Shown: positions 8,206-37,559 of the stretch, one piece after another
Position numbering within the stretch: position 1 is the stretch's first letter
Layout: every line of letters starts with the position of its first letter
Made by a program: the position numbers and the translations under genes
The notes under the pieces: model-generated
Seen by the model: only the letters and a program-made list of their open reading frames with translations
What the model was told of the DNA's origin: nothing
The model's database searches: none
Assembly (NCBI RefSeq): GCF_900176885.1
Contig: NZ_LT839648.1
Span: forward strand, 121,222 to 185,221
DNA length: 64,000 nucleotides
Source: Oceanobacillus senegalensis
GTDB lineage: Bacteria; Bacillota; Bacilli; Bacillales; Amphibacillaceae
Reading direction: 5' to 3'

Positions 8206-8211
8206 TATTTC

Positions 8212-12995: not shown

Positions 12996-13010
12996 AGAAG
13001 GAGGTTAGAT

Positions 13011-14684: not shown

Positions 14685-14704
14685 ATCAGAAAAGGAGAGA
14701 GTGT

Positions 14705-15850
14705 ATGGGAAATAGAGAAGCTGTAATTGTAGAGGCTGCACGTTTGCCAGTGGGTAGAAGGAAAGGGGTTTATGCAGAGACAAGATCTGAGTATTTGTTG
14801 TCAACTGTTTTACAAGGGTTAGTAGAACGTTCTGGTATTGACCCAAAGGAGATTGAAGATGTTGTTGTTGGTTGCGTTACTCAGAACGAAGAACAGGGAA
14901 ATAACGTTTCCCGAATAGCAACCCTGATGGCTGGGTTACCTAAGGAAATTCCAGCCATGACAATAAACAGAAAATGTGGGTCCTCACAGCACGCTGTGAA
15001 TATCGCAGCTCAGGGAATTATTAGTGGTGATTACGATGTGGTTATCGCTGCTGGTATTGAAAATATGACACGGCATCCAATGGGTTCGGATAAAGTTCCT
15101 GAGCCAGAAGAATTACATGATTTATATGAAATTATACCCCAAGGAGAATCGGCTGATCGAATCGCTTCTAAGTGGGAAATTTCTCGGGAAGAACTGGATG
15201 AATATTCAGTTAGAAGCCATCAGTTGGCTGATAAAGCAACTAAAAAAGGTGATTTCAAGCGAGAAATCATTCCTATTGAAATTAAAAAAGAAGGTAAAAA
15301 AATAGAAGTAACTGAAGATGAGGGAATTCGTCCAACCTCATCCGTGGAAAATTTAGCATTATTAAAGCCAGCTTTTTCTGAAAATGGAAAAATAACAGCA
15401 GGTAATTCGAGCCAAATAAGTGATGGATCTGCAGGTGTATTAATTATGTCTAGAGAAAAAGCAGATTCTTTAGGATTAAAACCACGTGCGAAAATTATAG
15501 CTAGGGATGTTATTGGGTCAGATCCTACTATGATGCTTACAGGAACAATTCCAATAACACAACGAATATTAAAGAAAGCTAGTTTAACAGTTGAAGATAT
15601 CGATGTATTTGAATGCAATGAAGCGTTTGCATCCGTTGTTCTTGCCTGGATGAAAGAAATAAAACCAAATATTGAGAAAGTAAATCCACGAGGTAGTGCA
15701 ATTGCGCTGGGTCATCCGACGGGTGCGAGTGGGGCGAGGATTATGACCACACTTATTCATGAATTAGAGGATATGGATAAGAAATATGGCTTACAGGTGA
15801 TGTGTTGTGGTGGTGGAATGGCAACCGCAACGATTATTGAAAGAATATAG
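14705..15850 (+). CDS. thiolase (acetyl-CoA C-acyltransferase)
   Basis: A 381-residue thiolase that cleaves 3-ketoacyl-CoA with CoA. It has the nucleophilic Cys in NRKCGSSQHAVNIAAQ, the ECNEAFA segment, the NPRGSAIALGHPTGASGARI block with the catalytic His, and the C-terminal active-site Cys in QVMCCGGGMATATI. Length is full for the family. AAAGGAGAGAG precedes the ATG. It supplies the last step of the beta-oxidation-like route whose earlier steps lie at 903-3957; the dehydrogenase step between is represented only by the neighbouring SDR relic. Confidence 0.92.
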   Translation: MGNREAVIVEAARLPVGRRKGVYAETRSEYLLSTVLQGLVERSGIDPKEIEDVVVGCVTQNEEQGNNVSRIATLMAGLPKEIPAMTINRKCGSSQHAVNIAAQGIISGDYDVVIAAGIENMTRHPMGSDKVPEPEELHDLYEIIPQGESADRIASKWEISREELDEYSVRSHQLADKATKKGDFKREIIPIEIKKEGKKIEVTEDEGIRPTSSVENLALLKPAFSENGKITAGNSSQISDGSAGVLIMSREKADSLGLKPRAKIIARDVIGSDPTMMLTGTIPITQRILKKASLTVEDIDVFECNEAFASVVLAWMKEIKPNIEKVNPRGSAIALGHPTGASGARIMTTLIHELEDMDKKYGLQVMCCGGGMATATIIERI

Positions 15851-23466: not shown

Positions 23467-24186
23467 ATGGCCTATTGTCCAAAGTGCGGTATTGAGGTGG
23501 AAGGGGATAATCGCCCTTGCCCACTATGCAGCTTTCCTATCCCAAAAGTAACAGAAGAGAATGAAACGGTTGCTCGGGTTCCTAAATTTCCGCAAGCTGC
23601 CAATCCATATCCTGCTCACTTTCGAGGCGTTCTCAATCGTATCTTTGTTTTCAGCACATTATTGATATTTGTAGCTATTTGTCTCATGTTTTATATTGAT
23701 TACGAATTAAATGAAATGTTGACTTGGTCCAGGTATAGTAATTTAAGTATGTTTGCAGGATGGGTCTTGTTATACTTTTCATTTGGTTATGTCCAAAGCT
23801 ACTATAAAGTCATTATCGGAATCGGCTTAGATGCGTTATTTTTATTATTTGGCCTTGATGTGTTCAACGGGAAGCTGGAGTGGTTCTTTCCTTTGGCATT
23901 TCCCATTGTAGCTGGGACAACGGTCATCAGTGTAGGCTACTGGAGCGCTATTCGATTACTGACTGTGAGGCGCTTTAATGTGATTGGTCTTTTCTTCATT
24001 ACACTCGTTATCCTATTCATGTGGATTAATTTCTTTATTCAAAGCTATCGAAATGAAGTGAATCTGCTGAATTGGATTATTGTTACCGTCCTACAGCTTT
24101 TACCCGTTTTATTCATTATGATTTACGTCAAGTACGGTATGTCTGAACGGATGAAACAAAAGATAGCGAGAAAGTTTCATTTGTAG
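23467..24186 (+). CDS. zinc-ribbon integral membrane protein (DUF6320-like)
   Basis: A 239-residue protein. The N-terminus has a rubredoxin-like zinc ribbon (C4-x2-C7 ... C18-x2-C21), followed by six or so TM helices. I believe it belongs to the DUF6320 type often found beside alcohol-acetyltransferase-like proteins in Firmicutes; this is from memory. Its ATG follows the acyltransferase stop after one base, so the products probably act together at the membrane. Function unknown. Confidence 0.65.
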   Translation: MAYCPKCGIEVEGDNRPCPLCSFPIPKVTEENETVARVPKFPQAANPYPAHFRGVLNRIFVFSTLLIFVAICLMFYIDYELNEMLTWSRYSNLSMFAGWVLLYFSFGYVQSYYKVIIGIGLDALFLLFGLDVFNGKLEWFFPLAFPIVAGTTVISVGYWSAIRLLTVRRFNVIGLFFITLVILFMWINFFIQSYRNEVNLLNWIIVTVLQLLPVLFIMIYVKYGMSERMKQKIARKFHL

Positions 24187-24360
24187 AGGGATATAGGGAA
24201 CAGCGCCCCGCTTGATAGTAAAGAGACGCGGAGGGAAGGAACATTGGTTCAAATTCGATTAGAGGAGCGGGATAATGTACCTCTGTCCTGCCGTAATGAG
24301 AGGGCGTATAAATGAAGGGAACGCGAAATGATAATGGAGTATTCTTATAGTTACCATAAT

Positions 24361-24398
24361 AAAAACCGATTCTTCTGTTCTTTTTAGAATCGGTTTAA
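24361..24398. terminator. bidirectional terminator
   Basis: AAACCGATTCT pairs with AGAATCGGTTT. T-runs suit the minus strand better. It lies between the membrane-protein gene (+) and the micro-ORF at 24483-24560 (-), and can serve both. Between 24187 and 24360 no gene was seen. Confidence 0.7.
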
Positions 24399-24482
24399 TG
24401 GATCACTTTTTCTTATTTTTGAATAAGACATGGTTACATCCTTTCTCTATGTAATGAAGTATGCGCCTGAATCCCACTCCCA

Positions 24483-24560
24483 CTATCTACGGTAAAGTTT
24501 TTCATAAGCATTAGCATATAATTCAAAAGCCTCTTTTATTGCTTGTTTAATTTGTCTCAT
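24483..24560 (-). CDS. 25-residue micro-ORF of unknown function
   Basis: On the minus strand GAGAGGAGGAACGACAG precedes ATG (24560), giving MRQIKQAIKEAFELYANAYE plus KLYRR and a TAG. It is short, helical and amphipathic, with a strong ribosome site and a terminator at 24361-24398 directly downstream. These three signals together support a real small protein. No family is recognised. Confidence 0.5.
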   Translation of the reverse strand: MRQIKQAIKEAFELYANAYEKLYRR

Positions 24561-24938
24561 CTGTCGTTCCTCCTCTCTTTTGTTAATTCTATTATCTTAG
24601 AAATGGGACAAATTGACAAAGTCTGTGGAATCGTTAACATTCCTCATGAAAACGACAACAACGCAAATGAAACCGAGAACATCTCCATTTTTCTTACCAT
24701 TTCACCTTTTTTCTCCTGTTTTTTAATGAAAGTGTAGCTTTCATATCTTTGAGGGGGGAGGTTCTGAGGTGATCCCCCAACTAAATTGATTCATATAGGG
24801 GGTGATAAGCCTGTTTGGGTTGCGGATTCTATATTGATCCTAAAGTTAAATCGACTTTTATTCTATAAAAAGATAGTAGCCCAAAAGCATGGCCTTGGTT
24901 TTGGGCTACTAATGTTAGTATGTTTGGGGTGCACTACA
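24561..24938. other. gene-free interval
   Basis: No supported gene. It contains the hairpin TAGCCCAAAA/TTTTGGGCTA (24877-24910), which reads on the minus strand into a T-rich stretch and likely terminates the AbrB-type gene. It also holds a GGGGG/CCCCC hairpin near 24751-24777. Confidence 0.5.
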
Positions 24939-26027
24939 TCATGCTTGATTCTTTACAGTGGGTGCGATGATTTTCTTTTGGGCTGTGTTTTTGTAAAAAA
25001 ATTTTAACGCTGGCATGACGATTAGGAAAATAAATAGTAATCTAAAAATCTGGAAAACTGTTACCATCGAAACGTCTGCTCCAATGGCATCTGCTAATAA
25101 AACCATTTGATCTAGTCCGCCTGGTGCGGTACTTAAGAAGCTGGTTGCAAATGAAAAGCCTAGCATAATAGATAGTACAAAACTGGTGCCGAACGTTAAA
25201 GCGATTAAACCGATGGAACTGAATACGCCAGCAAGTAAATAGCGTTTTGGTAATTTAATCATATGTGGTTTTAATGCTAAACCGATATGTGCACCAATAC
25301 ATAAGAGTGCAATATTCATGATAGAAGGGGGCACGACAGGGATAGTAACAGAACCCAGATTTAGACCAATCGCAATTAGAACAGGTGTTAGAAAATAAGC
25401 GATAGGCATATGGATACGTTTTGCAAGAAGAGAAACCAACCAAGAGACTAATATCAGAAGGATTAACCCGATAGTAAGGCTTGAACTGACTTCTGGCTTT
25501 GTGGCAACCTGACTTGCAACGATAAATGGAACAATGACAACAACAAGTAAAAGACGAACCACATGAAAGTATGTAATCGCCGCTAAGTCGACGTCTTTTT
25601 CTTCTTCAGCAAATACAACGATTTGTGCAATACCACCAGGAATGGTGCTAAGAATCATCGACTTGAAGGAAAGCTTAGACCATTTACTTAATAAATAAGC
25701 TAATCCAATAGACCCCGCTATAAGTACAATATTTAGTAGAAACATGTAGATTAGTAGAATTCCAAGATTATTAAAAAGTGCTAAATCGAATTGTTGGCCG
25801 ATGGTAAGGCCTAGAACAACAAGCCCGATATCACGTAGTCTTGGAGACCACCTTAGGGATCCTTTATAAATGAATTGAAACAAAAGTAGTGAAAAAATAG
25901 GACCTAACATCCAAGGAATAGGGACATGGAGAAAGCTAAATATGTTAGCACCTATAACAGCTATAAAAAAGACGATTAAAATTTCCTTGTTGAAAATCGC
26001 ATGTAAGACTTTTAATCGGTCCTTCAT
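24939..26027 (-). CDS. AbrB-family membrane transporter/regulator (duplicated AbrB domain)
   Basis: A polytopic protein of about 362 residues from the AbrB/'ammonia monooxygenase' membrane family, with two repeated AbrB domains. FLHVPIPWMLGPIFSLLLFQ and PIAYFLTPVLIAIGLNLGS mark the domain starts, and STIPGGIAQ and STAPGGLDQMVLLADAIGAD are the paired conserved loops. ATG 26027 or 26033 are preferred, after GAAAGGGGCG; an extension to 26111 is unlikely. It lies 94 bp after the dioxygenase gene in the same direction, so it may be the last gene of the aromatic cluster, possibly a transporter of a ring-cleavage substrate (inference). Confidence 0.8.
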   Translation of the reverse strand: MKDRLKVLHAIFNKEILIVFFIAVIGANIFSFLHVPIPWMLGPIFSLLLFQFIYKGSLRWSPRLRDIGLVVLGLTIGQQFDLALFNNLGILLIYMFLLNIVLIAGSIGLAYLLSKWSKLSFKSMILSTIPGGIAQIVVFAEEEKDVDLAAITYFHVVRLLLVVVIVPFIVASQVATKPEVSSSLTIGLILLILVSWLVSLLAKRIHMPIAYFLTPVLIAIGLNLGSVTIPVVPPSIMNIALLCIGAHIGLALKPHMIKLPKRYLLAGVFSSIGLIALTFGTSFVLSIMLGFSFATSFLSTAPGGLDQMVLLADAIGADVSMVTVFQIFRLLFIFLIVMPALKFFYKNTAQKKIIAPTVKNQA

Positions 26028-26120
26028 GAACATCGCCCCTTTCTTTGTAAGTGTAAAAATGAAGATACAGTGCTCAGCTTGCTTTCTGCGTTGCTGAACA
26101 CTGTTCGTCAAAAAGGATAG

Positions 26121-27098
26121 TTATTTCACTTTCGCAATTTCCTTCTCGCGATCTTTAACATCGTCACGACGGTGATCTCCCCAAACGGTTGAACCATATT
26201 TTAAGTATTCTTCGTACGTCCACTTGACTGGTTCCCAATCAGGTTCAAAGATTAAGTAGCCATTTGTGAATATTTCCAAACGAAGACCGCTACCAGGATC
26301 TTTTACGTAAATAAACATCGCCTGTGAAATTCCGTGTTTTCCTGGTCCTACAAAACTTAATTCATCTTCACTTAAAATATCCGCAGCACGTAATAAATCT
26401 TGAGCATTGTCTAGCCAATATGCGATATGGTGCATTTCATTTGGTCCTTTGCATCTTTCGGAAGACATCATAGCTACGTCATGTACTAAATTGGTAACAC
26501 TCAACCAGCTTGCAACTTGTTTGTCGTCTGGATTAACAAAGTATTCACGTAGTTTAAACCCAAGTTTCTCAACTAAGTAATTAACAATGATTTCGTTATC
26601 AACAGATGTTAATAAGTTTACATGATCAATTCGGCGAGGGGAAACCCCTTTTGCCCATGATTTATAGGTTTGATTTTTTAGGATTGATTTGCGGTTGGCA
26701 TCTGCTTCTGGTTTTTCCATATCAAAATAAATTTCAAAGCGATGGCCACTAGGCAATTCAAAACGAATCGCACGGCCTTGCCCAACTTCTTCACCAGGCT
26801 CAATCCAACGAACTTCGGCCCCAGCATCTTGCAGGAGACGAGCAAATGTATCCACATCTTCACGGCGTCTCGCTTTCCAGCCAATATGATCAATAAAAGA
26901 TGTTTCTCCAGCTGTAATGGATAATGTATGATGTTCGAAGTCGCCCCATGCGCGTAAATAGTGAGTGCCATCCACTTCACAAGTTTCTTCTAATCCAATC
27001 ACGTCTTTAAAGAACCGTAATGATTGTTCAAGATTCTCCGATACTAATGCAACATGCCCTAACTTTGCTATTTCTGGTGCATAATAAAATTTTTCCAT
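26121..27098 (-). CDS. extradiol ring-cleavage dioxygenase (catechol 2,3-dioxygenase type, VOC fold)
   Basis: Fe(II)-dependent meta-cleavage of a catechol. The 325-residue protein has two VOC domains, the length of the type I extradiol family. The C-terminal domain carries the probable metal triad H159 (RIDHVNLL), H223/H224 (EMHHIAYWLD) and E275 (GLRLEIFTNGY). The family-typical ending GSTVWGD is present. Genes downstream on the same strand order as oxygenase, hydrolase and dioxygenase give a complete hydroxylation-cleavage-hydrolysis route like HsaA-HsaC-HsaD. The catechol substrate cannot be read from sequence. Confidence 0.9.
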   Translation of the reverse strand: MEKFYYAPEIAKLGHVALVSENLEQSLRFFKDVIGLEETCEVDGTHYLRAWGDFEHHTLSITAGETSFIDHIGWKARRREDVDTFARLLQDAGAEVRWIEPGEEVGQGRAIRFELPSGHRFEIYFDMEKPEADANRKSILKNQTYKSWAKGVSPRRIDHVNLLTSVDNEIIVNYLVEKLGFKLREYFVNPDDKQVASWLSVTNLVHDVAMMSSERCKGPNEMHHIAYWLDNAQDLLRAADILSEDELSFVGPGKHGISQAMFIYVKDPGSGLRLEIFTNGYLIFEPDWEPVKWTYEEYLKYGSTVWGDHRRDDVKDREKEIAKVK

Positions 27099-27232
27099 AA
27101 AAATTCACCCCATCAAAGATAATAAATTTTTTTCTTATATATTTGGCTGATTTCTAAAAGCATTGTTGTTAATGCATAAAATAGATATGATGCGCAATAC
27201 TTAATACGAAAAAAGGTGCGTAAATACCGTTA

Positions 27233-27340
27233 CGGAAATACACTACGCTTTCCACGGGCGCTACTGAGCCCCCTCCGTGCTGTCGCACTACGTGGTCTCA
27301 CCGAGGCTTTTCATCCCGCAGTAGTCTCCGTGTATTTCCT
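27233..27340. repeat. dispersed palindromic repeat (GGAAATACAC...GTGTATTTCC)
   Basis: CGGAAATACACTACGCTTTCC at the left faces CTCCGTGTATTTCC at the right. The interior is GC-rich relative to surroundings. Partial copies lie near 31697, 45420-45560 and 57231. It separates the dioxygenase from the oxygenase gene. The 27341-27593 remainder shows no gene. Confidence 0.65.
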
Positions 27341-27593
27341 TCGCTAATTTTGAGCATAATCTTCTATTATTATTTCAGCTATGGTTAATGTAGGAAGACC
27401 AATCGACTTCTTGAAACTGCCCGCAGTGGAAATTAACGTGTATCAACAAACATTATTGTTCTATAAGTATTAAGCTAATAAGTAAAGTTACATCGACGTG
27501 CACTAATAAACTTCATTAGTTGCATCACACAATCCTTCCACCGCAACACTAAAACCAACAAAGTATAAGAAAACAGCCTACGTTTAAAAGGTC

Positions 27594-28763
27594 TTAACCT
27601 TGAATTCCTGTGTCGATGCCGAATAGGTGTCTTCCATATCCGGTTACAGCATCCTCATAAAGGGAAGTGATATGAGTAGCGATTGCCATCAAGTCACGTG
27701 TGAAAAGTTCAACAGGATGGCCTTTTAATAATGCATGACCGCCAAGTGTCAGTAAGCTTTTCACACCGATGTGAACACATTTGTCAATAATCGATGCGCG
27801 AATGGCTTTGTAACGGGCTCCTTCATATGGTCCGCCTTTGTCACGCTCCATTAAGGCAATATATTGATTCATAAGAGCATCTACCGCTTCCATTTCCATG
27901 CTTAGCTCTGCAAGGACGCGCTGGCTGGATGGTGATTCATTTTCTTTCACACCGGAAAAACGTACACGACCAGCCGTGTGTTTAGTGAATTCATCGATGA
28001 CACGATGGGCGCCACCAACTGCCATCGCAGCAAAACCAACATAAAATCCAGGATAGAAAGGGGTATTGTAGTATAGATAATCTTGGTCAAAATCTTCTTC
28101 TGGTGGCTGGCTACATTCAATGATTTTATTAAAGCGTAAGATTGCTTCTGGTTTGACAAATACATTATCCACAATCAACGTATTACTTCCTGAGCCACGT
28201 AATCCAAGAGAATTCCAGTTTTCTTGGATCTCTAGGTCATTTACATTTAAGCAAATTCCAACACGTTCTGGTTTGTCCGCATCCTCAAATTGCATGAACG
28301 CACCGACACCAACCCATTCTGAATAGTTAATACCGCTTACAAAATGATACGTTCCTGAAACGCGATATCCACCGTCACAAGCTTCTACTTTTCCGATGGG
28401 AGCAAATACGTCTGCAACAAATCCATCTGATTCAACGACCTCATCACGTAATGGTTTAGGCAAATAAGATACCCAAGCATTGTGTAGAGAAAAGAAGCAT
28501 GTAAGCCAAGCAGCTGATAAATTGTGATAGCCTACTGTACCAATAAAGTCTACATACGTTTTCCAATCTAATTGTGGATACCCATAATCTTTCGGCAACA
28601 GCAAACGATGAATTTCCTCCGTGCGAATCGCATCTGCTACATTAGTGGAGACGGTTGCATTTAAATCCGCTTGTTCCGCCTCTTTTTCAGCTAATTGTCC
28701 AATACGTTTTCCTTTTTCCATTATCTCTTCATAAAGTGAAGTTTTATTTTTAACAAGTACCAT
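27594..28763 (-). CDS. flavin-dependent aromatic monooxygenase, oxygenase component (ACAD-fold, HsaA/HpaH-like)
   Basis: A 389-residue acyl-CoA-dehydrogenase-fold protein of the group D flavin monooxygenase type. It hydroxylates a phenol to a catechol with reduced flavin. Support: an ACAD-like N-terminus (IHRLLLPKDYGYPQLDWKTY), a middle domain (YRVSGTYHFVSGINYSEWVG, LRGSGSNTLIVDNVFV), and a C-terminus without the ACAD catalytic Glu context. Reduced flavin would come from the reductase at 33605. The next gene is the meta-cleavage hydrolase. AAAGGGTGG precedes the ATG. Alternatives: another ACAD-fold hydroxylase. Confidence 0.82.
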   Translation of the reverse strand: MVLVKNKTSLYEEIMEKGKRIGQLAEKEAEQADLNATVSTNVADAIRTEEIHRLLLPKDYGYPQLDWKTYVDFIGTVGYHNLSAAWLTCFFSLHNAWVSYLPKPLRDEVVESDGFVADVFAPIGKVEACDGGYRVSGTYHFVSGINYSEWVGVGAFMQFEDADKPERVGICLNVNDLEIQENWNSLGLRGSGSNTLIVDNVFVKPEAILRFNKIIECSQPPEEDFDQDYLYYNTPFYPGFYVGFAAMAVGGAHRVIDEFTKHTAGRVRFSGVKENESPSSQRVLAELSMEMEAVDALMNQYIALMERDKGGPYEGARYKAIRASIIDKCVHIGVKSLLTLGGHALLKGHPVELFTRDLMAIATHITSLYEDAVTGYGRHLFGIDTGIQG

Positions 28764-28792
28764 AGAACCACCCTTTCATTTTCTTATTCCTA

Positions 28793-29686
28793 TTATTTGG
28801 CAACCGTTTCTCTTACTTCAGAGGAAAAAAAGTCGGCAACCATTTGATTGACTATTTCCGGTTGATCAGTTTGGCATTGATGTCCACAGTTGTCTAAGTA
28901 TTCGAATTCCACTTCCGGTAGCATGGCATCTAACTTATAACCAGTTTCAACTGGTGCCACTTTATCTTGTTTCCCCCAAATGAATTTGCTAGGAATTTTC
29001 AATTTAGGCAGTGAATCTTTTAAGGAATACCGATCCCACAGCTTTGGTTCATTATTCATTTTTTCTAGGTAGGCACCGAATGCCTCATTAGCCTCTTTAA
29101 CACCTTCTCGATTTGCGGCGCGATGGCGTAGTTGAATTAGTTCTTCTGGCACCTCTGTACCTTCTGCCATATTACGTGTCATAAAGTTACGTAAGGATTT
29201 TTCGGTGTAATCATACCCAATGACTTCTAGGAAGGATCGCATTTTTCTAAGCGGTGTTTCTTGCATTGCTTGATAAATCGTATTACTACCGATATAGACG
29301 ATTTTGTTCACCTTTTCTGGATGATCAATAGCATATTTTGCAGCAACATAGGCACCTTGTGAGTTCCCTACCAAATAAACCTCATCCAAGCAAAGGGCTT
29401 CAATAAAATCATGCACATGGTCTACTAAACTTTGATGTCCCTTTACTGGCCATGCATGTTCACGTGTATCCGTGAATCCCATGGATAACTGATCTGGTGC
29501 ATATGCACGAAATCCTGCTTCTGCTAATGCTGGTAGCATCAAGCGCCATCCAGCTGCCCCGCAAGCTCCAGGGCCGGCCCCGTGTAATAGGATAACTGCA
29601 GGTCCTTCTGTGCCTGCCCAAGAATAATGTGTTCGAACCCCATTAGCTAATACCCAACTATTATGAAAACCTTCAAACATTGTCAT
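28793..29686 (-). CDS. alpha/beta hydrolase, meta-cleavage product hydrolase type
   Basis: A C-C bond hydrolase for the ring-fission product. About 297 residues with the alpha/beta fold: HGAGPGACGAAGW (oxyanion loop), nucleophile elbow GNSQGA, acid in WGKQDKVAPVE and His in NCGHQCQTDQPE. ATG 29686 follows GGAGGTACG; the longer frame to 29740 is unlikely. The gene order hydrolase-oxygenase-dioxygenase on the minus strand suggests an operon read from about 29.7 kb leftwards. It is divergent from the V4R/PucR regulator gene. HsaD/BphD-like by motif; substrate unknown. Confidence 0.85.
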   Translation of the reverse strand: MTMFEGFHNSWVLANGVRTHYSWAGTEGPAVILLHGAGPGACGAAGWRLMLPALAEAGFRAYAPDQLSMGFTDTREHAWPVKGHQSLVDHVHDFIEALCLDEVYLVGNSQGAYVAAKYAIDHPEKVNKIVYIGSNTIYQAMQETPLRKMRSFLEVIGYDYTEKSLRNFMTRNMAEGTEVPEELIQLRHRAANREGVKEANEAFGAYLEKMNNEPKLWDRYSLKDSLPKLKIPSKFIWGKQDKVAPVETGYKLDAMLPEVEFEYLDNCGHQCQTDQPEIVNQMVADFFSSEVRETVAK

Positions 29687-29867
29687 GAAATCGTACCTCC
29701 AAAAAATGTAATATCTTTTATTTATAGGTACATTGTACAATCGTATTTTTCAGAACATAATATCACTTTTTATGGAAAAATAGTCAAAATGTTTATAAAA
29801 TTATTGAATGTTAATTTTCCTTTAAGTATTATAAATATAAACACTGTCAGAATAGGGGGGAATGTTT

Positions 29868-31664
29868 ATGAATGATGTAGTCTTCGATAAGTCAGATTCA
29901 ACAAGTATTTTAATGTCAACTAATGCATTTCTTACACTAAATAATAATTTGGAAAAAAATATAGGATCGTATAAAACAAAGGGATTTTTATTCCGTTTTG
30001 GGAAAGAGTTTGGCATGGAACGCGCTAAAAATAATACCGAAAAATTATCTAAGAAACGAAAAGTCGGAAAAATGCATACAAAATTAGGCCATGTTCAGGA
30101 TGTGAAATTTGAAGGAGAAATCATTCGACATCCAGATGGATCCATTGAATGCTTGAATACAGGAGGAAAGTGGATTAAGTCATTTGAAGCGGAATTATAT
30201 GTAAAAAGTGGGAGGTTAGCAACGGAGCCTGTTTGCCACACACTTTGTGGATTTGCCAGTGGAGCCCTGTCGTATGAGTTCGGTGAATCCATTATTGCTG
30301 TAGAAACCAAATGTGTGGCAAAAGGGGATGATTGTTGTGAATTTGAAATTCGTTTAGAGAAGGACTGGTTACCGGAAAAAGGAGAGCTTATTTCCCTCTA
30401 CCAAAATGATAATATTTTATCGGAATTAGAAATGACCTACGATGCGTTGCTACATCATAAACTATTACTGGAGAAACTCTCTGTCTTTCAAACGCAACTA
30501 ACGCAGAATGTCACGGAAAAATATACGATGGAAGAACTTGTTGAAGAGGCCTACCGCTTGCTGCAAATCCCCATTGTCGTAGAAGACCTTCATGGTAATC
30601 TATTAAAGCAAAGTGGACTGGATGAAGATCATCAAAAGCATATTCAAAAAAATCCAGCAAGCTTAATAGAGTATAAAAGAGATATAAACGTGGGGCATTA
30701 CGAAGGGGATGACTATTTTAAAGTAGTTTCACCTGTCGTAATTAATAAAAAAAATTATGCAACTTGTTCTCTAATTTACTTTTCACCTAAAGAAATGGAA
30801 AAGACCGATTATTTGTTTTTAGAAAAAGTCTCCAATGTTGTTGCCCTATGTATGTTGTATGAAGAAGCTCAATTCGGGGAACAGCAACGTATGCGAAATT
30901 CAATTGTGGAGCGGCTAATGCATAATCCAAATATAAAATCCATTGAATCTAGTTTTAAATTTTTGCCATTTCCATTTCAACTTCCTTTTTCAACTGCGGT
31001 GCTACAATTAGAGAATGTCGAAACAGATACGGAACTTATTGATTATCAGCAACAACTCATGCAACTTTCGAAGTTGGTTGAAACATTGAATTTATCTACC
31101 ATTCTCGCGGTGATTGGAGATGAAATAATCTTAGTAAACTCTCATCATGATGAGCAAAGAAAATTCCAAACGGTCTGTAAAAAGTTCTTAAAAAAAATGT
31201 CTCAACAAAATCCTGGTTACTCCTATTCTTTAGGCTTGAGTCGTATGTTTACAGAGTTAACTGATTTTAAACAGGCATTAAGTGAAGCACGTGTCGCACA
31301 ACGGTTTCCTAATAAACAGGCCCTAACCGAATACGAAGAATTAGGGATGATAGGTGATGTATTATCTGGTATGAGTTTGGAACAAATTCATAATATGGCG
31401 AAAAAGACACTAAAGGGTTTATATGACTTTAAAAATAAACGAAAAAAGGAACTGCTCCATACCCTATATATTTATTTAATGAATGGACAACGCATTAAAG
31501 AAACGATGGATTATTTACATTTGTCTATCGGAGGGATCCAATACCGAATAAAAAAAATAGAAGAATTATTACATGGAAGTTTGAAAAATGCACCAGTAGC
31601 CGCACATATCTTGCTCATTATTCAGGCTCTTATTTTAGTAGGCGAATTGGAGTTTGATAGTTAG
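29868..31664 (+). CDS. aromatic-sensing regulator: XylR-N and V4R sensor with PucR-type HTH
   Basis: About 598 residues. Residues about 35-120 resemble XylR_N (FLFRFGKEFGMERA). A V4R domain follows (VCHTLCGFASGALSYEFGES, then ETKCVAKGDDCCEFEIR), the sensor used by XylR/DmpR/PoxR. The C-terminus (about 540-595; LYIYLMNGQRIKETMDYLHL, IQYRIKKIEELL) is a PucR-type HTH_30, with a GAF/PucR-like middle. There is no sigma-54 AAA domain. So sensor and output come from different regulator classes. Start 29868 is preferred over 29862 because GGGGGG is too close to 29862. Divergent from the hydrolase-led operon, so it probably controls it in response to an aromatic. Confidence 0.85.
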   Translation: MNDVVFDKSDSTSILMSTNAFLTLNNNLEKNIGSYKTKGFLFRFGKEFGMERAKNNTEKLSKKRKVGKMHTKLGHVQDVKFEGEIIRHPDGSIECLNTGGKWIKSFEAELYVKSGRLATEPVCHTLCGFASGALSYEFGESIIAVETKCVAKGDDCCEFEIRLEKDWLPEKGELISLYQNDNILSELEMTYDALLHHKLLLEKLSVFQTQLTQNVTEKYTMEELVEEAYRLLQIPIVVEDLHGNLLKQSGLDEDHQKHIQKNPASLIEYKRDINVGHYEGDDYFKVVSPVVINKKNYATCSLIYFSPKEMEKTDYLFLEKVSNVVALCMLYEEAQFGEQQRMRNSIVERLMHNPNIKSIESSFKFLPFPFQLPFSTAVLQLENVETDTELIDYQQQLMQLSKLVETLNLSTILAVIGDEIILVNSHHDEQRKFQTVCKKFLKKMSQQNPGYSYSLGLSRMFTELTDFKQALSEARVAQRFPNKQALTEYEELGMIGDVLSGMSLEQIHNMAKKTLKGLYDFKNKRKKELLHTLYIYLMNGQRIKETMDYLHLSIGGIQYRIKKIEELLHGSLKNAPVAAHILLIIQALILVGELEFDS

Positions 31665-31768
31665 ATTTTCGAGCTGTCGTCCAGAGCAAAAGTACAGAAG
31701 CGGAAATACACTGTGCTTTACGTGGGCGGCTTTTCTTCGTGTGATGTTAAGCTAATGAAATCATTACA

Positions 31769-31823
31769 AAAGGCTAGAAGACTCCACCCTAGTTACGTAC
31801 TAGGATGGAGTCTTCTAGCCTTC
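31769..31823. terminator. long bidirectional hairpin terminator
   Basis: AAGGCTAGAAGACTCCACC pairs with GGATGGAGTCTTCTAGCCTT, a near-perfect stem of about 23 bp between the convergent regulator (+) and MFS (-) genes. Partial palindromic-repeat sequence (GCGGAAATACACTG) precedes it near 31697. Confidence 0.85.
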
Positions 31824-31861
31824 ATTATTGAAATTCTAGAGGAATCACATTTTAACGATAG

Positions 31862-33133
31862 CTATTCGACATCCACGGTTGCTGCTGTTTGTGCATCTGG
31901 TTGGCTCACTAAAACTTTACGTTTGCTTGTAAATAATAGCATTAGTCCACATAGTGCACATAATACACTTATTATTAATACACCTGTGTTAAAACCAATT
32001 CGAGTGCTATCACCAACATTAGATACTAAATAACCAGTTAGAGCAGGTCCAATAACGGCCGCTAAAGCATTGATAGCTAAAGTAAAACCTGAGATGGTTC
32101 CAATTAAGTTTTTAGGTACTATTATTGAATTAATTGTTGTAAAAAGTGGAAGTAAACATGCATTAAGCACTAATCCTAACCCTAGTAAAGGAACGGCTAA
32201 AATCGGTGTAGTGAAAATTGTCGTCATTCCAAAAGAGATAGCACTTATAAGTAAAATGGAAATTAAGACGGCAGTATAGGATTTGTCAATACTTTTTTTC
32301 CTTTTGAAAAGGAAATCAGCAAGTTTACCGATACCAATAGCAACGAATATCCCTGAAATCCCTATTCCCGCCATAACCGTTCCCATGTTCTGTGATTCTA
32401 GTCCAACAATTTGTGTTAAATAAATTGGTGCCCAAGTAACGACCCAAGTAATAATCCACATTCCTACAAATCCTACTGCTATAACAGAGAGGATGAAAGG
32501 GTTTAATACAATTTTAATAACATCTTTAAATTCCGCGTTATTCTGTTTGGTTGGTTGATCCTGAACAGACTCAACAATTGGTTCTTTGGGCCTTTCTTTT
32601 AAGAAAAGGAAAATAATTGCCCAAACTAAACTAGCTGCTCCTAAAGTAGCAAAGGAATGTTTCCAACCAAAATTAGCTAATAATATGACAAGGACTGGTG
32701 CAAATACATACGTACCTACTGTTGTACCAGATGTCATAAGCGCAATTGCCAGACCACGTGACTCACTTGCAAACCATTTAGAAATGTGTGCTACACATAG
32801 TCCATAGGTTCCACCTTCAAAAAAACCTAGTACAGTACGAATAACGATTAATCCAGTAAAGCTTTCCACTAAATAAGCACCTGTCAGGGAAACTGTCCAA
32901 CCAAGAGCAATCATGATTAATAAATACTTTGTATTGAACCGGTAAGTTAGAGAACCAATTATTATACTACCGATTGCGTAGGCAAAGAAGAAACTACTGC
33001 TAGGTAAACCGAATTGTTCATAACTTATATCTAACCCACTCATAATCGGCTCAGCTGCTAACCCATAAATACTTTTATCTGTATAGTTTAATACAGATAT
33101 CGAGAAGAGCATTACTAAAACAACCCACTTCAA
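31862..33133 (-). CDS. MFS transporter (anion:cation symporter-like)
   Basis: About 423 residues, 12 TM segments. MFS motifs: SVLNYTDKSIYGLA early, FFEGGTYGLCVAHISKWF and ESRGLAIALMTSGTTVGTYV between helices 4 and 5, KERPKEP cytoplasmic loop, and KLADFLFKRKK at mid-protein. This is the ACS-like pattern for organic/aromatic acids. GGAGGAGG is 8 bp before TTG 33133, favoured over ATG 33151, which lies in that site. It probably imports the substrate of the flanking aromatic cluster (inference). Confidence 0.82.
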   Translation of the reverse strand: MKWVVLVMLFSISVLNYTDKSIYGLAAEPIMSGLDISYEQFGLPSSSFFFAYAIGSIIIGSLTYRFNTKYLLIMIALGWTVSLTGAYLVESFTGLIVIRTVLGFFEGGTYGLCVAHISKWFASESRGLAIALMTSGTTVGTYVFAPVLVILLANFGWKHSFATLGAASLVWAIIFLFLKERPKEPIVESVQDQPTKQNNAEFKDVIKIVLNPFILSVIAVGFVGMWIITWVVTWAPIYLTQIVGLESQNMGTVMAGIGISGIFVAIGIGKLADFLFKRKKSIDKSYTAVLISILLISAISFGMTTIFTTPILAVPLLGLGLVLNACLLPLFTTINSIIVPKNLIGTISGFTLAINALAAVIGPALTGYLVSNVGDSTRIGFNTGVLIISVLCALCGLMLLFTSKRKVLVSQPDAQTAATVDVE

Positions 33134-33185
33134 TAAAAAAACCTCCTCCATTTTTTCCCTCTTTAAACTTTAAACAACCGTTGAA

Positions 33186-33199
33186 AGATAACGCTTACA
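33186..33199. promoter_or_regulatory. possible catabolite-responsive element (cre)
   Basis: AGATAACGCTTACA matches TGWAANCGNTNWCA at 12 of 14 positions, about 53 bp upstream of the MFS start. A CcpA site here would be sensible for a catabolic transporter. The match is not exact. Confidence 0.3.
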
Positions 33200-33604
33200 A
33201 TACTAAAACAAAAGTGGTTCCTCCTTTCTTTTTTTAGGTAGATGTAACTCCTCAAATACCGAAAAGTTAACAGAAGAATTGGAAATGTGCATCTGCTTGT
33301 TGCTTGAATCAGATATTAAATGAATAAATTTTCTTTGACAAGTCCAATTTATTGAATAAAAATACTTTTCTAACATTTAAAGTAAGATTTAATAATGTTT
33401 TTTTAATCATGTTAAATAGTCAAGAAATGTTGATATATATAGATTTTTCATTATTTTTAGCGTAGAAATAGTGAAAAGTTGATTTGTAGATTTCCATAAA
33501 TTTTATTTTTTTTAGTGGTTTTTTCAATAATAAGAGTAATTATAAATTTTTTGTTGTTTTTCTATAATCGAAATAAGTTTCAAAGAAAATGGGGGGACAC
33601 AAAA

Positions 33605-34087
33605 ATGGAAGATCGTTTATTCAGAAATGCAATGGGAAGTTTTGCAACAGGGGTTACGGTAATTACAACGGAGGCAAATGGAATTACACATGGAATGACA
33701 GCAAACGCTTTTATGTCACAATCTTTGGATCCAAAACTCGTTATTATCTCGTTAAAAGAAGATGCGCAAATGTTAGCAAAAATTAAGGAAAGTGGGCATT
33801 TTTCTGTGAATATTCTTGCTGAAGAACAACAAGATTTATCGATGATTTTTGCGGGGCAAATCATGAGTGAACAAGAAGTTGAATTTGATTATCTAGACGG
33901 AAAACCTGTTATTCCAGGCGCACTTGCACAAGTTGCCTGTGACGTGAAATCTGCATACGTAGAAGGGGATCATACCCTTTTCATCGGTCAAGTAACAGAT
34001 GTTCATTTAGCAGAAGGGAATCCGCTAATTTTCTTTAAAGGAAAATATCAAACATTAGAGAAAGAATTAGTTTCCAATTCTAATTAA
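33605..34087 (+). CDS. flavin reductase (HpaC/HsaB-like), reductase component
   Basis: A 160-residue flavin reductase domain protein that uses NAD(P)H to reduce FMN or FAD for the oxygenase. Support: NAMGSFATGVTVITTEANGI, THGMTANAFMSQSLDPKLV and HFSVNILAEEQQDL, all typical. Start 33605 follows GGGGGGAC; longer in-frame start 33515 is unlikely. It is followed 35 bp later by the FAD-synthetase-like gene, so they are cotranscribed. It complements the minus-strand oxygenase as a two-component monooxygenase. Confidence 0.88.
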   Translation: MEDRLFRNAMGSFATGVTVITTEANGITHGMTANAFMSQSLDPKLVIISLKEDAQMLAKIKESGHFSVNILAEEQQDLSMIFAGQIMSEQEVEFDYLDGKPVIPGALAQVACDVKSAYVEGDHTLFIGQVTDVHLAEGNPLIFFKGKYQTLEKELVSNSN

Positions 34088-34122
34088 AAACAAACGAAAC
34101 AAAAAGGGGTGAGAAAATCCTT

Positions 34123-34974
34123 ATGAAAACAATCTATTTAGATTCCAGTAATTTGGAATACTGGCAAAATCGTTCCACATCGAATGTCATGGCACTAGGG
34201 TTTTTTGATGGACTTCATAAAGGTCATAAACAAGTCATTCAGACAGCAGGTGAATTAGCAAAAGAAAAAAAGGTTTCCTTTTCTGTCATGAGCTTTTTTC
34301 CACACCCAAAAACCGTTCTATCCAATGACAATGCCGATTTTGACTACCTAATGCCACTTTCTAAAAAGGCTTCTATTTTAGAATACCTGGGTGTTGATAC
34401 GTTCTATATAGTGAAATTTGATAAGGATTTTCTTTCCCTTCTTCCAAAACAGTTCGTAACTAGCTATCTGCTTGATCTGGGAGTTGTTCATGCTGTAGCG
34501 GGGTTTGATTTTTCTTATGGATATCGGGGAAAAGGCAATATTGACCGTCTTAAAAGTGATTCTGCAAATCAAATTGACGTCACAAAAGTGGGCAAGGTCG
34601 ATTTATATGGAAAAAAGATGAGCTCAACGTGGATACGTGAACTTATAGCAGCAGGTGAAGTAGGACAGTTAGCGAATATTCTCGGCAGGTTTTACGAAAC
34701 GGAAGGATATTGGGATGGAGAGAGCTTTCAATTAGCGCCATATTATATGCTTCCTGCAGCAGGCTATTATAAGGTATCTGTAAAAAGGAAAGGGAAAATA
34801 CGAGAAACAGAGGTATTTATTCCTGCTAGTCGAAATGGAATTTATTTAACCGACAACATGAAAAGAACATTCCCACTGAATGAGCGTTTAGATATAATTT
34901 GGTCCCATAAAATAGGGGACGTGGGGCTAGGTACAATGTCCCACAAGTTCGGATATGTTCCTGTTACTAATTAG
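34123..34974 (+). CDS. FAD synthetase-like protein (RibF N-terminal domain, divergent C-terminus)
   Basis: A 283-residue RibF-like protein. The N-terminal nucleotidyltransferase domain is intact: ALGFFDGLHKGHKQVIQTA with the HxGH-like GLHKGH, FFPHPKTVL, DFSYGYRGKG and STWIRELIAAGEVGQLANIL. The C-terminus lacks the riboflavin kinase signature (no GRTLGFPTAN), so it may only adenylate FMN to FAD. Being cotranscribed with the flavin reductase, it probably raises FAD supply for the monooxygenase. That is inference. A housekeeping ribF would lie elsewhere. Confidence 0.8.
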   Translation: MKTIYLDSSNLEYWQNRSTSNVMALGFFDGLHKGHKQVIQTAGELAKEKKVSFSVMSFFPHPKTVLSNDNADFDYLMPLSKKASILEYLGVDTFYIVKFDKDFLSLLPKQFVTSYLLDLGVVHAVAGFDFSYGYRGKGNIDRLKSDSANQIDVTKVGKVDLYGKKMSSTWIRELIAAGEVGQLANILGRFYETEGYWDGESFQLAPYYMLPAAGYYKVSVKRKGKIRETEVFIPASRNGIYLTDNMKRTFPLNERLDIIWSHKIGDVGLGTMSHKFGYVPVTN

Positions 34975-35006
34975 ATTTCTTTTAACCGCTTTTTTCTGCG
35001 GGTGTT

Positions 35007-35038
35007 AGACTGTGTGTGTTGGCACTCAGTCTGTTTTT
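35007..35038 (+). terminator. Rho-independent terminator
   Basis: AGACTG pairs with CAGTCT over a 14-bp loop, followed by GTTTTTAT, just after the FAD-synthetase-like gene. Modest stem. Confidence 0.5.
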
Positions 35039-35154
35039 ATTTTTGGTGACGGAATCCAAAGAGAAGCCCCCCTTGCTTCTTGTTAATTGAAATATTTAGC
35101 TGTATTACACGTATATATAGGTAAGGATAGTTATCTTCAAGGGGGGCTAACTTT

Positions 35155-35574
35155 ATTAAGAGGTTCTTATATTATTTCGGTTGGACTGTTGGTATTGGAT
35201 TTATCATTTATTTGGGGATTAATTTTCAGGTTCGATTAGAAAGGGAAGCAAGTATGAATTTTGAAATCATGCCTGTTGTATTATTTGGATCCATATTTCC
35301 GATTGTTATCGGACTCTTACTTAGATTACCCACGTTGATTATAGAAAGGAAGCAAAAGAAACAATGGTCATTTGATTGGGTAAAGTTTACGGCGATTGTA
35401 TTGCCTTCTTTCTATATTATAACGATGTCGATATTACCATTTACCCCTTTAGGAGAAGGCTTCCTTAAAATATCGGAGATCATTATGATTGGAAGTCCAA
35501 CCATTCAAGTCATCGCTGGAGTTGTTTTGGTTATAGCTCTTTGGATAGTTTCATCCAAAAGTAGTAATAACTAA
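35155..35574 (+). CDS. small membrane protein with probable ATT start
   Basis: About 139 residues, four TM segments. The conventional start, TTG 35212, has no ribosome site and would cut through the first TM helix. The frame is open from 35131, and AAGGGGGGC (35139-35147) lies 8 bp before ATT 35155, which gives KRFLYYFGWTVGIGFIIYLG as a complete first helix. ATT starts are rare but known (infC). Otherwise unknown function; no neighbours in an operon. Confidence 0.55.
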   Translation: MKRFLYYFGWTVGIGFIIYLGINFQVRLEREASMNFEIMPVVLFGSIFPIVIGLLLRLPTLIIERKQKKQWSFDWVKFTAIVLPSFYIITMSILPFTPLGEGFLKISEIIMIGSPTIQVIAGVVLVIALWIVSSKSSNN

Positions 35575-35635
35575 CTGTATGACCCTTAATGAGAATTTAT
35601 TTATGTAATGATTACAAACTATCTTTTTTCAAAAA

Positions 35636-35676
35636 AATCACCTCTGTTATTCATTTATGACAGAAGGTGATTTTTA
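35636..35676. terminator. hairpin terminator (TCACCTCTGT type, copy 1)
   Basis: ATCACCTCTGT pairs with ACAGAAGGTGAT, followed by TTTTTA. A near-identical hairpin with similar flanking ACAAACTAT lies at 46018-46060. Confidence 0.85.
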
Positions 35677-35773
35677 TATTTAGGGAGTAAATTTATTAAG
35701 CATTCATAAAAATAAAAGTAAATACTCAATATTCCATTAGCGTGGGGAATATCGGCTTTCTTTATGTCGAATT

Positions 35774-36259
35774 TTACTTAGTGTATGTTTTCTGTGTTTT
35801 GTAGGAAAGCCGCCTTATGAACTTTTGTAATAGAAACCCTATAAGCAAACCTGGAATTATACTTAATATTGGAAGCCAAATTGGTCCGAGGAATATACCG
35901 AATATAGTTAGTTTAGACGAAAAGATAGTTCCCACAGTCACAAAATAGGCACAAAATACGAATGGTAAAAACGAATAAGGTTTTTTCCCTCCACCTGCAT
36001 CTTTAAAGGCGTCCCATATTGTAAAAATATACAAGCATGGATAAAACATAACCCATTGGTAATCAGCCTGTTGACTCGCTTTTAAAATTTCCCCCTGAAA
36101 ACTTAGAAGTATGACCTCGTTTAAATTTCCTTGAACATTGACCAAAAACTCTAAGGAAATCAATACAATTCCTTTGATATATTTTCCGTTTAATAATTGG
36201 CCAAAACCAGGTATTGCGATGCTCCATATAAGTTTTCCAGTTGCATTTTTATCTGCCAT
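35774..36259 (-). CDS. hydrophobic membrane protein (TM2-like)
   Basis: A 161-residue protein with about four TM segments. Its N-terminal SIAIPGFGQLLNGKYIKGIV resembles the 'PGxGQxxnGkyxKG' motif of TM2/DUF5683 proteins. The C-terminus is basic. It begins 19 bp after the DUF3231 stop, with a weak ribosome site, so the two may be cotranscribed. Function unknown. Confidence 0.6.
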   Translation of the reverse strand: MADKNATGKLIWSIAIPGFGQLLNGKYIKGIVLISLEFLVNVQGNLNEVILLSFQGEILKASQQADYQWVMFYPCLYIFTIWDAFKDAGGGKKPYSFLPFVFCAYFVTVGTIFSSKLTIFGIFLGPIWLPILSIIPGLLIGFLLQKFIRRLSYKTQKTYTK

Positions 36260-36278
36260 GTCATTTCATTAGCCCGCC

Positions 36279-37289
36279 TTAATTCTTTTTAGCTAAATCT
36301 GTACGATTTGGAGCCATAGGAGGCTGTTCAAGCCATTTATTTTTAATCATAATATTAGCTCCGTCCTCTGAAAATTTCTGTATCTCGACTGATAATCTGT
36401 TATACATCCCTCCCAAATCCATCCTAGGACTTTGGGCAATAGCAGTACCATAAAAGCCAATACTCAAAGAAATTAAAGTTGTTGTATAATACATTAATAA
36501 TTTATCAGAAAATGTATAGGCTGTACTTTTGGTTATATCTGCATCCCATGTCATAGGTACGGGGAGATTACCTTCTTTTAATTTTTCACTAAATAATCTA
36601 ATATGCTTTTTTCCAATTTCTATTCCTCTTGTAAGGAATTTCTTGACATCCTTCGATTGGGCAACTTGACTAAATCCAGTTAATAAAGCTGTTCCTAAAG
36701 CATTTCTTTGGATATTAGCATAAAGGTTAGTCACTTCTGTTCCTATTAAAGATCTTTTTTCGCCTAAAATATCCCATATAAAGCCTTGCTTCTTTACAAA
36801 GTCTGCTTCATCGTGAGTGGGAAAGTATGGTGGCCTTATATATAACCCCTTTGATAACAATAAGTCTTTTGCCATCTCGTATAATTCTATGGTCTCTGAT
36901 AGACATTCTTTATAGAAGGCGGTAATGTCTGATCTCACGGCAAAGGATAAGCTAGATCCATATGTTGTAAGTCCTATTGAGCTCATTTGGTGTACAAATG
37001 TTAATGCATAACTGTCAGCGTATAATCTTGGGGCGGTTAAATCAACATCTTCCTCGACTTTTAATCCATGAGGGACTTTATGTTTCTCCTCCGTAAGTAT
37101 CGTATTGATTTTCTTTAAATGTGCTTGAGATAACTTCAAAGAATGCTCAATTACAGTCTTTATTTCTGTATCCTCAGCTTTTTCACGGAAATAGCTTAGC
37201 ATACATACACTTGCACTATCTTGCGTGTATTGATTAAATAGCTGTGTTATTTCCCCTGATGTCAGTTTTACTTGTTTTTCCTGTTCCAC
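36279..37289 (-). CDS. DUF3231 family protein
   Basis: A 336-residue protein made of two DUF3231 repeats of about 165 residues, a ferritin-like helical fold common in spore-forming Bacillaceae. Recognisable pieces are SYFREKAEDTEIKTVIEHSL near the N-terminus and LMYYTTTLISLSIGFYGTAI with MYNRLSVEIQKFSEDGANIM near the C-terminus. No signal peptide. GGAGG lies 8-12 bp before the ATG. Biochemical role unknown; a spore or stress role is possible. Confidence 0.82.
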   Translation of the reverse strand: MEQEKQVKLTSGEITQLFNQYTQDSASVCMLSYFREKAEDTEIKTVIEHSLKLSQAHLKKINTILTEEKHKVPHGLKVEEDVDLTAPRLYADSYALTFVHQMSSIGLTTYGSSLSFAVRSDITAFYKECLSETIELYEMAKDLLLSKGLYIRPPYFPTHDEADFVKKQGFIWDILGEKRSLIGTEVTNLYANIQRNALGTALLTGFSQVAQSKDVKKFLTRGIEIGKKHIRLFSEKLKEGNLPVPMTWDADITKSTAYTFSDKLLMYYTTTLISLSIGFYGTAIAQSPRMDLGGMYNRLSVEIQKFSEDGANIMIKNKWLEQPPMAPNRTDLAKKN

Positions 37290-37492
37290 TTTTAAAAACC
37301 TCCACTATTGAATAACTTCCTTGCTGGTTATTCTTTATCATTAAATGTAATTTATGCGGTATTGAACTTTAGGGACAGTGGGGGTTAATAAAGAATATTG
37401 ATAGTGGGTAAGGTGCTCTCCTAACAGTTTTATTATTTATCCATAATTCTACAAAATGCAATAAGAACTGTCCCAATCCCTACTGAGCATCC

Positions 37493-37559
37493 GGAATCAT
37501 CGTTCGACAACTAAGATTAAAAATTTCCAGGGAAATTGTCGATGTTTTTCAGAAAATGT
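37493..37559 (+). repeat. dispersed 65-bp repeat, copy 1
   Basis: CGTTCGACAA then TTTCCAGGGAAATTGTCGAT and TTTTTCAGAAAATGTA. Copy 2 (38889-38960) reads CGTTCGGCAA, TTTCCCGAGAAATTGTCGAT and TTTTTCTGGAAATGTA. No gene was seen between 37290 and 37555. Confidence 0.6.

Follow-up and report, generated by a model that had tools for sequence, protein, structure and literature searches.

A mosaic meta-cleavage gene cluster of Oceanobacillus senegalensis with an apparently kinase-dead RibF paralogue beside its flavin reductase

We analyzed a stretch of 64,000 nucleotides of Oceanobacillus senegalensis (hereafter, the window; bases 121222-185221 of contig C4, NZ_LT839648.1, in a genome of 4.3 Mb and 4 contigs) and focused on a compact cluster of eight genes for the meta-cleavage of an aromatic compound. 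The cluster is a real, conserved and mosaic catabolic module, a variant of the phe-type meta-cleavage system of Gram-positive bacteria. We consider it likely (probability of about 0.68) that it is the upper module for catabolism of one imported monohydroxylated aromatic. This compound, most likely a phenolic acid or a phenol substituted at position 2 or 3, would pass through regulator-induced hydroxylation dependent on flavin adenine dinucleotide (FAD), extradiol cleavage and hydrolysis. The protein families, key residues, conserved gene order, loss of a kinase motif and lower-pathway homologues elsewhere in the genome were read directly from the sequence. The most interesting part of the cluster is the RibF paralogue encoded beside the flavin reductase, which appears to be kinase-dead. 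The genes and the two intergenic features are the following:

24939-26027, minus strand: AbrB-family (PF05145) membrane protein (Pfam 251.8 bits, TIGR03082 238 bits)
26121-27098, minus strand: Type I (VOC) extradiol catecholic dioxygenase (TIGR03211, 291.2 bits against a cut-off of 320.2)
27144-27579, no strand: composite dispersed repeat between the oxygenase and dioxygenase genes (genome matches)
27594-28763, minus strand: oxygenase component of a predicted group D two-component flavin-dependent monooxygenase of the acyl-CoA dehydrogenase (ACAD) fold (NCBIfam, phmmer, tree, fold and residues)
28793-29740, minus strand: alpha/beta-fold meta-cleavage-product C-C hydrolase (Pfam, NCBIfam and motifs)
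29862-31664, plus strand: predicted PheR-type regulator with XylR_N-V4R sensor, GGDEF-like domain and PucR helix-turn-helix (Pfam)
31773-31819, no strand: 20-bp terminator-like hairpin where the regulator and MFS genes converge (terminator scan)
31862-33151, minus strand: MFS transporter (Pfam MFS_1, 168 bits)
33515-34087, plus strand: flavin reductase, the reductase component (PF01613, 134.3 bits)
34123-34974, plus strand: RibF paralogue with a flavin mononucleotide (FMN) adenylyltransferase domain and an apparently kinase-dead, riboflavin-kinase-like C-terminal domain (PF06574, 152.4 bits)

A preliminary description of this DNA, made from the sequence alone, had placed seven genes here; an open reading frame (ORF) was found where each had been placed, and Pfam and NCBIfam concur with the fold-level label of each protein. 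The AbrB-type gene, absent from that description, belongs to the conserved block as an eighth gene, the last of its leftward part; its start was placed at an ATG, and the ORF list gives a longer, TTG-started ORF. All eight ORFs are open.

The proposal that the gene order would be conserved elsewhere was borne out. We searched the named genomes by alignment, which gave 123 stretches with 99 relatives, of which the best 80 were kept; their neighbourhoods were analyzed by ORF calling and BLAST, with two plasmid loci added. The AbrB-type protein, dioxygenase, oxygenase, hydrolase, regulator and MFS transporter each have their three best matches, at 55-83% identity and in the same order, in a Peribacillus asahii plasmid (L072), Niallia endozanthoxylica (L078) and Neobacillus sp. 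PS3-12 (L079), with the AbrB-type gene at the same place (57-65% identity). Because six genes keep their order at this level of identity in three other genera, the arrangement is not a chance pattern. The flavin reductase, in contrast, has its five best matches (77-80%) in L144, L081, L095, L090 and L084, compared with 57-58% in the syntenic loci (in L078 a reductase was not found within the stretch examined), and the four best matches of the RibF paralogue reach 67-73%, compared with 34-38%. These best reductase and RibF matches come from Aquibacillus, Oceanobacillus, Psychrobacillus and Aliibacillus loci. Since the upper six genes and the reductase-RibF pair have their best matches in different loci, the cluster is a mosaic, in which a pair of another lineage fills the same position.

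The same genome holds a second cluster about 38 kb past the window end (L017, C4:218001-238000, 5457-12848), a probable phenol pathway in which a RibF paralogue and a flavin reductase are divergent from a V4R-PucR regulator, an oxygenase, a catechol 2,3-dioxygenase and a hydrolase; an ISL3 transposase lies nearby. Two further extradiol-dioxygenase loci are L063 (C4:1702001-1722000, 9192-15257), with an HpaB-type hydroxylase, a flavin reductase and a V4R-PucR regulator, and L071 (C4:2128001-2148000, 8355-10637).

An identity of the oxygenase as an ordinary acyl-CoA dehydrogenase was ruled out, because a 95-row maximum-likelihood tree and the Foldseek fold matches both set it apart. In this tree, the window oxygenase forms a 4-row clade (100/100) with those of L072, L078 and L079, nested in clades of 15 rows (100/100) and 53 rows (100/100); four ACAD-like proteins encoded by this genome group separately from these (100/100), and HsaA and HPAH fall outside the Bacillales oxygenase clades, in a tree where, according to a program warning, long branches make the deep joins uncertain. 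NCBIfam gives 153.9 bits to the HsaA model (NF045629; cut-off 450) and 133.5 to the HPAH model (cut-off 650). The AlphaFold2 model (predicted local distance difference test, pLDDT, 92.4) is closest in fold to HPAH-C2, Rv3094c and HsaA. H94, S143 and H364 align with H120, S171 and H396 of HPAH-C2, and D118 stands in place of HPAH S146; among 51 oxygenase sequences, S143 and H94 are invariant and H364 is kept in at least 90%. In HPAH, S171 is the serine at flavin N5, and H120 and H396 are active-site histidines. For S171, stabilization of the C4a-hydroperoxyflavin is described in PMC10696468. By sequence and fold, the protein is a predicted group D (ACAD-fold) two-component flavin hydroxylase of the HPAH-C2/HsaA/PheA1 sort; the protein found at the PheA1 position on Parageobacillus plasmids shares 40% identity with it. 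IppA1A2 was set aside as a model, its product being, according to the account in PMC12442392, a hydroquinone rather than a catechol; PheA of strain A7 also differs from the window oxygenase, and its counterpart is named HpaB in the relevant part of PMC8696081.

The metal ligands proposed earlier for the dioxygenase, H159/H224/E275, align with XylE H153/H214/E265, which we take to be the metal ligands of that enzyme, and the C-terminal domain holds the 2-His-1-carboxylate site of Type I extradiol (VOC) enzymes. The protein scores 29 bits under the cut-off of the catechol 2,3-dioxygenase equivalog, whereas the L017 dioxygenase (353.3 bits) passes it; as only the latter does so, the two enzymes probably take different catechols. 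The nearest named relative is Geobacillus pBt40 BphC (55.3% identity over 89% of the query), annotated as a manganese-dependent 2,3-dihydroxybiphenyl enzyme; at 55% identity, the window enzyme may share the requirement for Mn(II). A 90-row tree places the dioxygenase in a 33-row clade (100/97), apart from PheB and with pBt40 BphC just outside. The hydrolase has the GNSQG motif noted before (residues 125-129, with S127) as well as GKQD and CGHQ motifs, which give the presumed Asp 259 and His 287; its best solved relative is 2d0d, a 2-hydroxy-6-oxo-7-methylocta-2,4-dienoate hydrolase (E=8.7e-33).

For the ketone derived from 3-methylcatechol, hydrolysis is given as the only route onward in the relevant passage of PMC2590616. 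References for tautomerase, decarboxylase, aldehyde dehydrogenase (Aldedh) and ferredoxin had no match in the window (tblastn, E up to 1e-3). Because the window encodes a hydrolase, whereas the references for three enzymes of the other branch (tautomerase, decarboxylase and aldehyde dehydrogenase) went unmatched there, the likeliest intermediate would be a 3-substituted catechol. The hydratase, aldolase and acetaldehyde dehydrogenase references had no window match either in the same search; homologues are encoded at two other sites in the genome, the hydratase at C4:2871131 (77% identical to an Aquibacillus gene) and, around C4:689.8-691.7 kb, both the aldolase and the acetaldehyde dehydrogenase, with identities of 49% and 56%.

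The domains of the regulator are, in order, XylR_N (21.8 bits, just under the Pfam cut-off of 23), V4R, GGDEF-like and PucR helix-turn-helix. Its sensor matches the MopR phenol sensor 5kbe (E=5.5e-14), with C125, E148, C151, C159, H72 and W104 at the positions of MopR C155, E178, C181, C189, H106 and W134, which we take to be zinc ligands and phenol contacts. The hybrid V4R/PucR architecture announced in the preliminary description is thus present; it is not new, however, because the same order occurs in the PheR-position regulator of a Parageobacillus plasmid (L073), as well as in the paralogue in L017. The hybrid is thus of the known PheR kind. The genome has three near-full-length matches to it, one with an internal stop, each adjoining an aromatic cluster, the third of which encodes a hydroxylase of HpaB type.

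The RibF paralogue differs from housekeeping RibFs by a deletion where the latter have a G(D/E)xRGRxxGxPTAN-type motif. The FMN-adenylyltransferase motifs GxFDGxHxxH and GxDxYG are present in 54 of 54 paralogues and [SG]STxIR in 52 of 54, whereas the riboflavin-kinase motif GxxxGxxxGxPTxN was found in none of the 54 full-length paralogues but in all 21 housekeeping RibFs; this pattern is a relaxed one, a stricter version having matched just 7 of 19 housekeeping RibFs. The structural model (pLDDT 91.5) has FAD synthetases, aligned over nearly the full length, among its best PDB matches, so that the C-terminal domain is apparently the dead remnant of a kinase. Among the 159 genomes of the family, our own included, the oxygenase (E up to 1e-80) and the RibF paralogue (E up to 1e-57) occur in the same 9, at thresholds that we set ourselves; the next-best genome's RibF match (L041, 2e-51) keeps the kinase motif. 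A RibF paralogue is present in 56 of the 80 named loci and directly beside the flavin reductase, on the same strand, in 34. Because it also adjoins the reductase in HpaB-type hydroxylase clusters (L064 and L066), its association is not limited to ACAD-fold oxygenases. In L067 and L069, weaker paralogues neighbour a flavin reductase gene; genes for proteins of 502-504 amino acids encode HpaB-type hydroxylases in L063, L064 and L066 and aldehyde dehydrogenases in L067 and L069. In L024 (G083:C8:78001-98000, 5047-5894), the RibF paralogue is split by a stop codon into two ORFs.

The idea that the cluster brings its own flavin supply therefore holds for one step, FMN to FAD, for which the adenylyltransferase motifs are kept, and fails for the riboflavin kinase step, whose motif is lost. 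We rate at even odds a broader proposal: that a kinase-dead RibF paralogue is dedicated to the aromatic operons of Bacillales, where it would convert FMN to FAD beside the reductase, so that FAD supply is co-induced with the two-component hydroxylase, and that the reductase and RibF genes form a portable 'cofactor cassette' that has been exchanged in situ beneath differing upper modules, the window being one instance. For the chromosomal phenol locus of Parageobacillus thermoglucosidasius, the legend of Figure 8 in PMC8696081 already lists a ribF as neighbour of the flavin reductase. In our literature searches, we found no paper on the kinase loss of RibF paralogues, their spread or their general pairing with the reductase.

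Among described systems, the nearest is the Geobacillus/Parageobacillus phe operon rather than the HsaA-D set, which the preliminary description had taken as its model. HsaABCD of steroid-degrading Actinobacteria has the same reaction order and fold classes, but orthology was rejected because the window proteins miss the equivalog cut-offs of all four models by far (HsaA 154 of 450 bits, HsaC 37 of 450, HsaD 113 of 400, HsaB 110 of 230), and HsaA lies outside in the oxygenase tree. The phe operon is described, in the parts of the papers that concern it, for Geobacillus stearothermophilus DSM 6285 (PMC2590616), which grows on phenol and on 2-, 3- and 4-methylphenol, and for the P. thermoglucosidasius plasmid locus HSUL 2 (PMC8696081); the gene order of the Parageobacillus plasmid locus matches the operon given in PMC2590616, with the 40% oxygenase relative at the pheA1 position. 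Common to the operon and the window are the ACAD-fold oxygenase, flavin reductase, extradiol dioxygenase and XylR_N-V4R-PucR regulator. The operon has its own tautomerase, decarboxylase, ferredoxin and linked lower genes, with no transporter or RibF among the listed genes, whereas the window adds transporters, a hydrolase and the RibF paralogue, and its dioxygenase belongs to another clade. The chromosomal phenol locus PtPL of P. thermoglucosidasius, as presented in PMC8696081, shares with the window pucR, ribF, flavin reductase, dioxygenase and hydrolase, but its hydroxylase is named HpaB and is not of the ACAD fold, and its ribF is listed there merely as riboflavin kinase/FMN adenylyltransferase. 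Also close is the Peribacillus asahii CK1 plasmid NZ_CP085716.1 (6617-18945), with the AbrB-type gene, dioxygenase (82%), oxygenase (75%), hydrolase (80%), regulator (61%) and MFS gene (55%) in the same order; it differs in having hydratase, acetaldehyde dehydrogenase and aldolase genes between the reductase (58%) and the RibF paralogue (38%). Geobacillus pBt40 resembles the window in its BphC, but this gene adjoins Rieske ring-hydroxylating dioxygenase genes.

The MFS protein scores 160.8 of 395 bits with TIGR00893 and 75.9 of 418.6 with TIGR00895, a family resemblance that hints weakly at an anion/aromatic-acid type; the AbrB-type protein is a probable auxiliary transporter. To compare transporter content between clades, we counted, beside a cluster gene, relatives of three references (the MFS proteins of the window and L018 and the xanthine-permease-like protein of L019). 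Such a transporter was present in 7 of 14 loci of the window clade (window not counted), in 19/22, 3/9 and 0/4 loci of the other subclades of the 53-row clade, in 0/21 loci of the clade of the second O. senegalensis cluster and in 0/9 of the PheA1 clade. Loci were put into subclades by hand from an earlier oxygenase tree, whose 53-, 22-, 15- and 10-row clade sizes are identical in the final one; the count omits L125, L153, L132 and the own paralogue, and takes L084 and L086, with oxygenases of two subclades, once. Of five unknown ORFs sampled from the 19/22 subclade, four are LigB-type dioxygenases, that of L106 belonging to an adjacent cluster; the single one compared with NCBIfam models scored best as 3-carboxyethylcatechol dioxygenase (199.8 of 291). 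The pattern points to charged phenolics that are transported, hydroxyphenylpropanoids for example, as substrates in the larger clade of the window and to phenol in the other two clades.

Clusters of the own-paralogue clade in L023 (13443-16929), L024 (11262-14654), L027 (5405-8724) and L144 carry genes of the sulfatase and sulfatase-modifying-factor (FGE-like) families, assigned by Pfam for L023 and two L024 ORFs, by BLAST for L144 and by ORF size only for L027; the FGE-like gene of L024 likewise lies in two ORFs. This content suggests that aryl sulfates feed the pathway in the sulfatase-bearing clusters. In L114 (7468-8961), a TcuA-like FAD-binding dehydrogenase gene stands between the dioxygenase and oxygenase genes, with MmgE/PrpD and isocitrate-lyase-family genes alongside, an unusual association of tricarboxylate-type with meta-cleavage genes; L115-L119, L121, L122 and L139 have a similar layout, judged by ORF size only.

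Under the upper-module reading, the MFS and AbrB-type proteins would import the phenolic, and the PheR-type regulator would sense it through its XylR_N-V4R region and switch on the divergent leftward operon. The flavin reductase would supply FADH2, with which the ACAD-fold oxygenase would convert the phenol into a 3-substituted catechol, while the RibF paralogue, turning FMN into FAD beside the reductase, would top up the cofactor of the hydroxylase. The dioxygenase would then cleave the ring adjacent to the hydroxyls. From the ketone so formed, the hydrolase would release a carboxylic acid together with 2-hydroxypenta-2,4-dienoate, and the hydratase, aldolase and acetaldehyde dehydrogenase from elsewhere in the genome would turn the dienoate into pyruvate and acetyl-CoA. 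The substrate, direction of transport, regulation and FAD-supply role in this scheme are our interpretation. A route from phenol through catechol and ring fission to hydrolysis in Bacillaceae, as first proposed, is supported by the families, the oxygenase tree and the conserved order.

Several observations weigh against this reading. The transporter pattern counts related loci rather than independent events, so that it offers only a lead; its references all come from the larger clade of the window, and other transporter families of other clades would escape it, as the DctM-type transporter of L084 fell outside the count. None of the candidates for the lower pathway is linked to the cluster, and with an aldolase just 49% identical to the linked type, completion of the route is assumed. 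The closest named kin of the dioxygenase is merely 55% identical, and the regulator is only 25% identical to the Parageobacillus PheR-position protein. No RibF paralogue was seen in 24 of the 80 loci within the stretch examined, some of which end at contig ends; the paralogue is therefore not essential. Finally, insertion of the repeat between the oxygenase and dioxygenase genes might reduce dioxygenase expression.

That repeat (27144-27579) makes up most of the gap between the two genes, which is 495 bases in the window compared with 93, 49 and 58 in L072, L078 and L079. It is partly palindromic, GGAAATACAC...GTGTATTTCC, and a second repeat, matched by positions 15-178 of the gap sequence, is nested with it. 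The genome holds at least 48 matches of its 211-base core and at least 51 of the whole gap, window copy included; as 40 candidates were scored in each search, these are lower bounds. The repeat looks like a family akin to miniature inverted-repeat transposable elements (MITE) or repetitive extragenic palindromes (REP), and its predicted RNA fold is unremarkable (z -0.69). The hairpin at 31773-31819 is probably the shared terminator of the convergent regulator and MFS genes. Because scans for promoters (29 sites against a shuffle mean of 34.5) and terminators (7 against 7.4) gave no excess over shuffles, we drew the limits of the operons from synteny and the spacing of the genes. No Rfam family was found in 24000-37500 at E up to 0.1.

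The best-placed alternative, which we nevertheless hold to be unlikely, would make the cluster another phenol/cresol pathway, a counterpart of the phe operon that acts on simple phenol or methylphenol, with the transporters incidental. The 40% likeness of the oxygenase to the PheA1-position protein and the PheR architecture with its MopR-like sensor speak for it. However, the genome has a better phenol candidate in L017, whose dioxygenase passes the catechol 2,3-dioxygenase cut-off; the PheA1 and L017 clades are separate from that of the window and show none of the three sought transporter types in 30 loci; and the tautomerase, decarboxylase and ferredoxin references lack a match in the window.

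Still less probable, although compatible with the mechanism of the upper-module reading, is that the cluster degrades a bulky phenolic of biaryl or steroid-like structure. The 55% likeness of the dioxygenase to pBt40 BphC, which we take to be BphC_JF8, fits such a substrate, and the closest hydrolases among solved structures are of isopropylbenzene and carbazole type. Yet the HsaC- and HsaD-type scores are far too low, and Pfam found no steroid- or biphenyl-opening gene among the cluster proteins. A substrate order for BphC_JF8 is quoted in PMC8671467; BLC23O, which according to a passage of that paper is only 19% identical to BphC-JF8, was set aside. Very improbable is a decaying module that no longer works: the repeat inside the operon and the missing match in the window for the lower genes that adjoin the P. 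asahii reductase (tblastn, E up to 1e-3) would agree with decay, but all eight ORFs are open, the checked key residues are kept in the oxygenase, dioxygenase, hydrolase, regulator and RibF paralogue, and lower-pathway homologues are present elsewhere in the genome.

If the upper-module reading and the proposed role of the RibF paralogue are correct, the usual annotation of this gene, riboflavin kinase/FAD synthetase, would hide a specialised FMN adenylyltransferase, a marker in many Bacillales of operons for two-component aromatic hydroxylases. Inducible FAD supply would then be part of the pathway, which would be useful for reconstituting hydroxylases where the supply of reduced flavin matters. 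Furthermore, the map of clades with and without transporters would provide substrate hypotheses for dozens of as yet unassigned clusters of Gram-positive bacteria.

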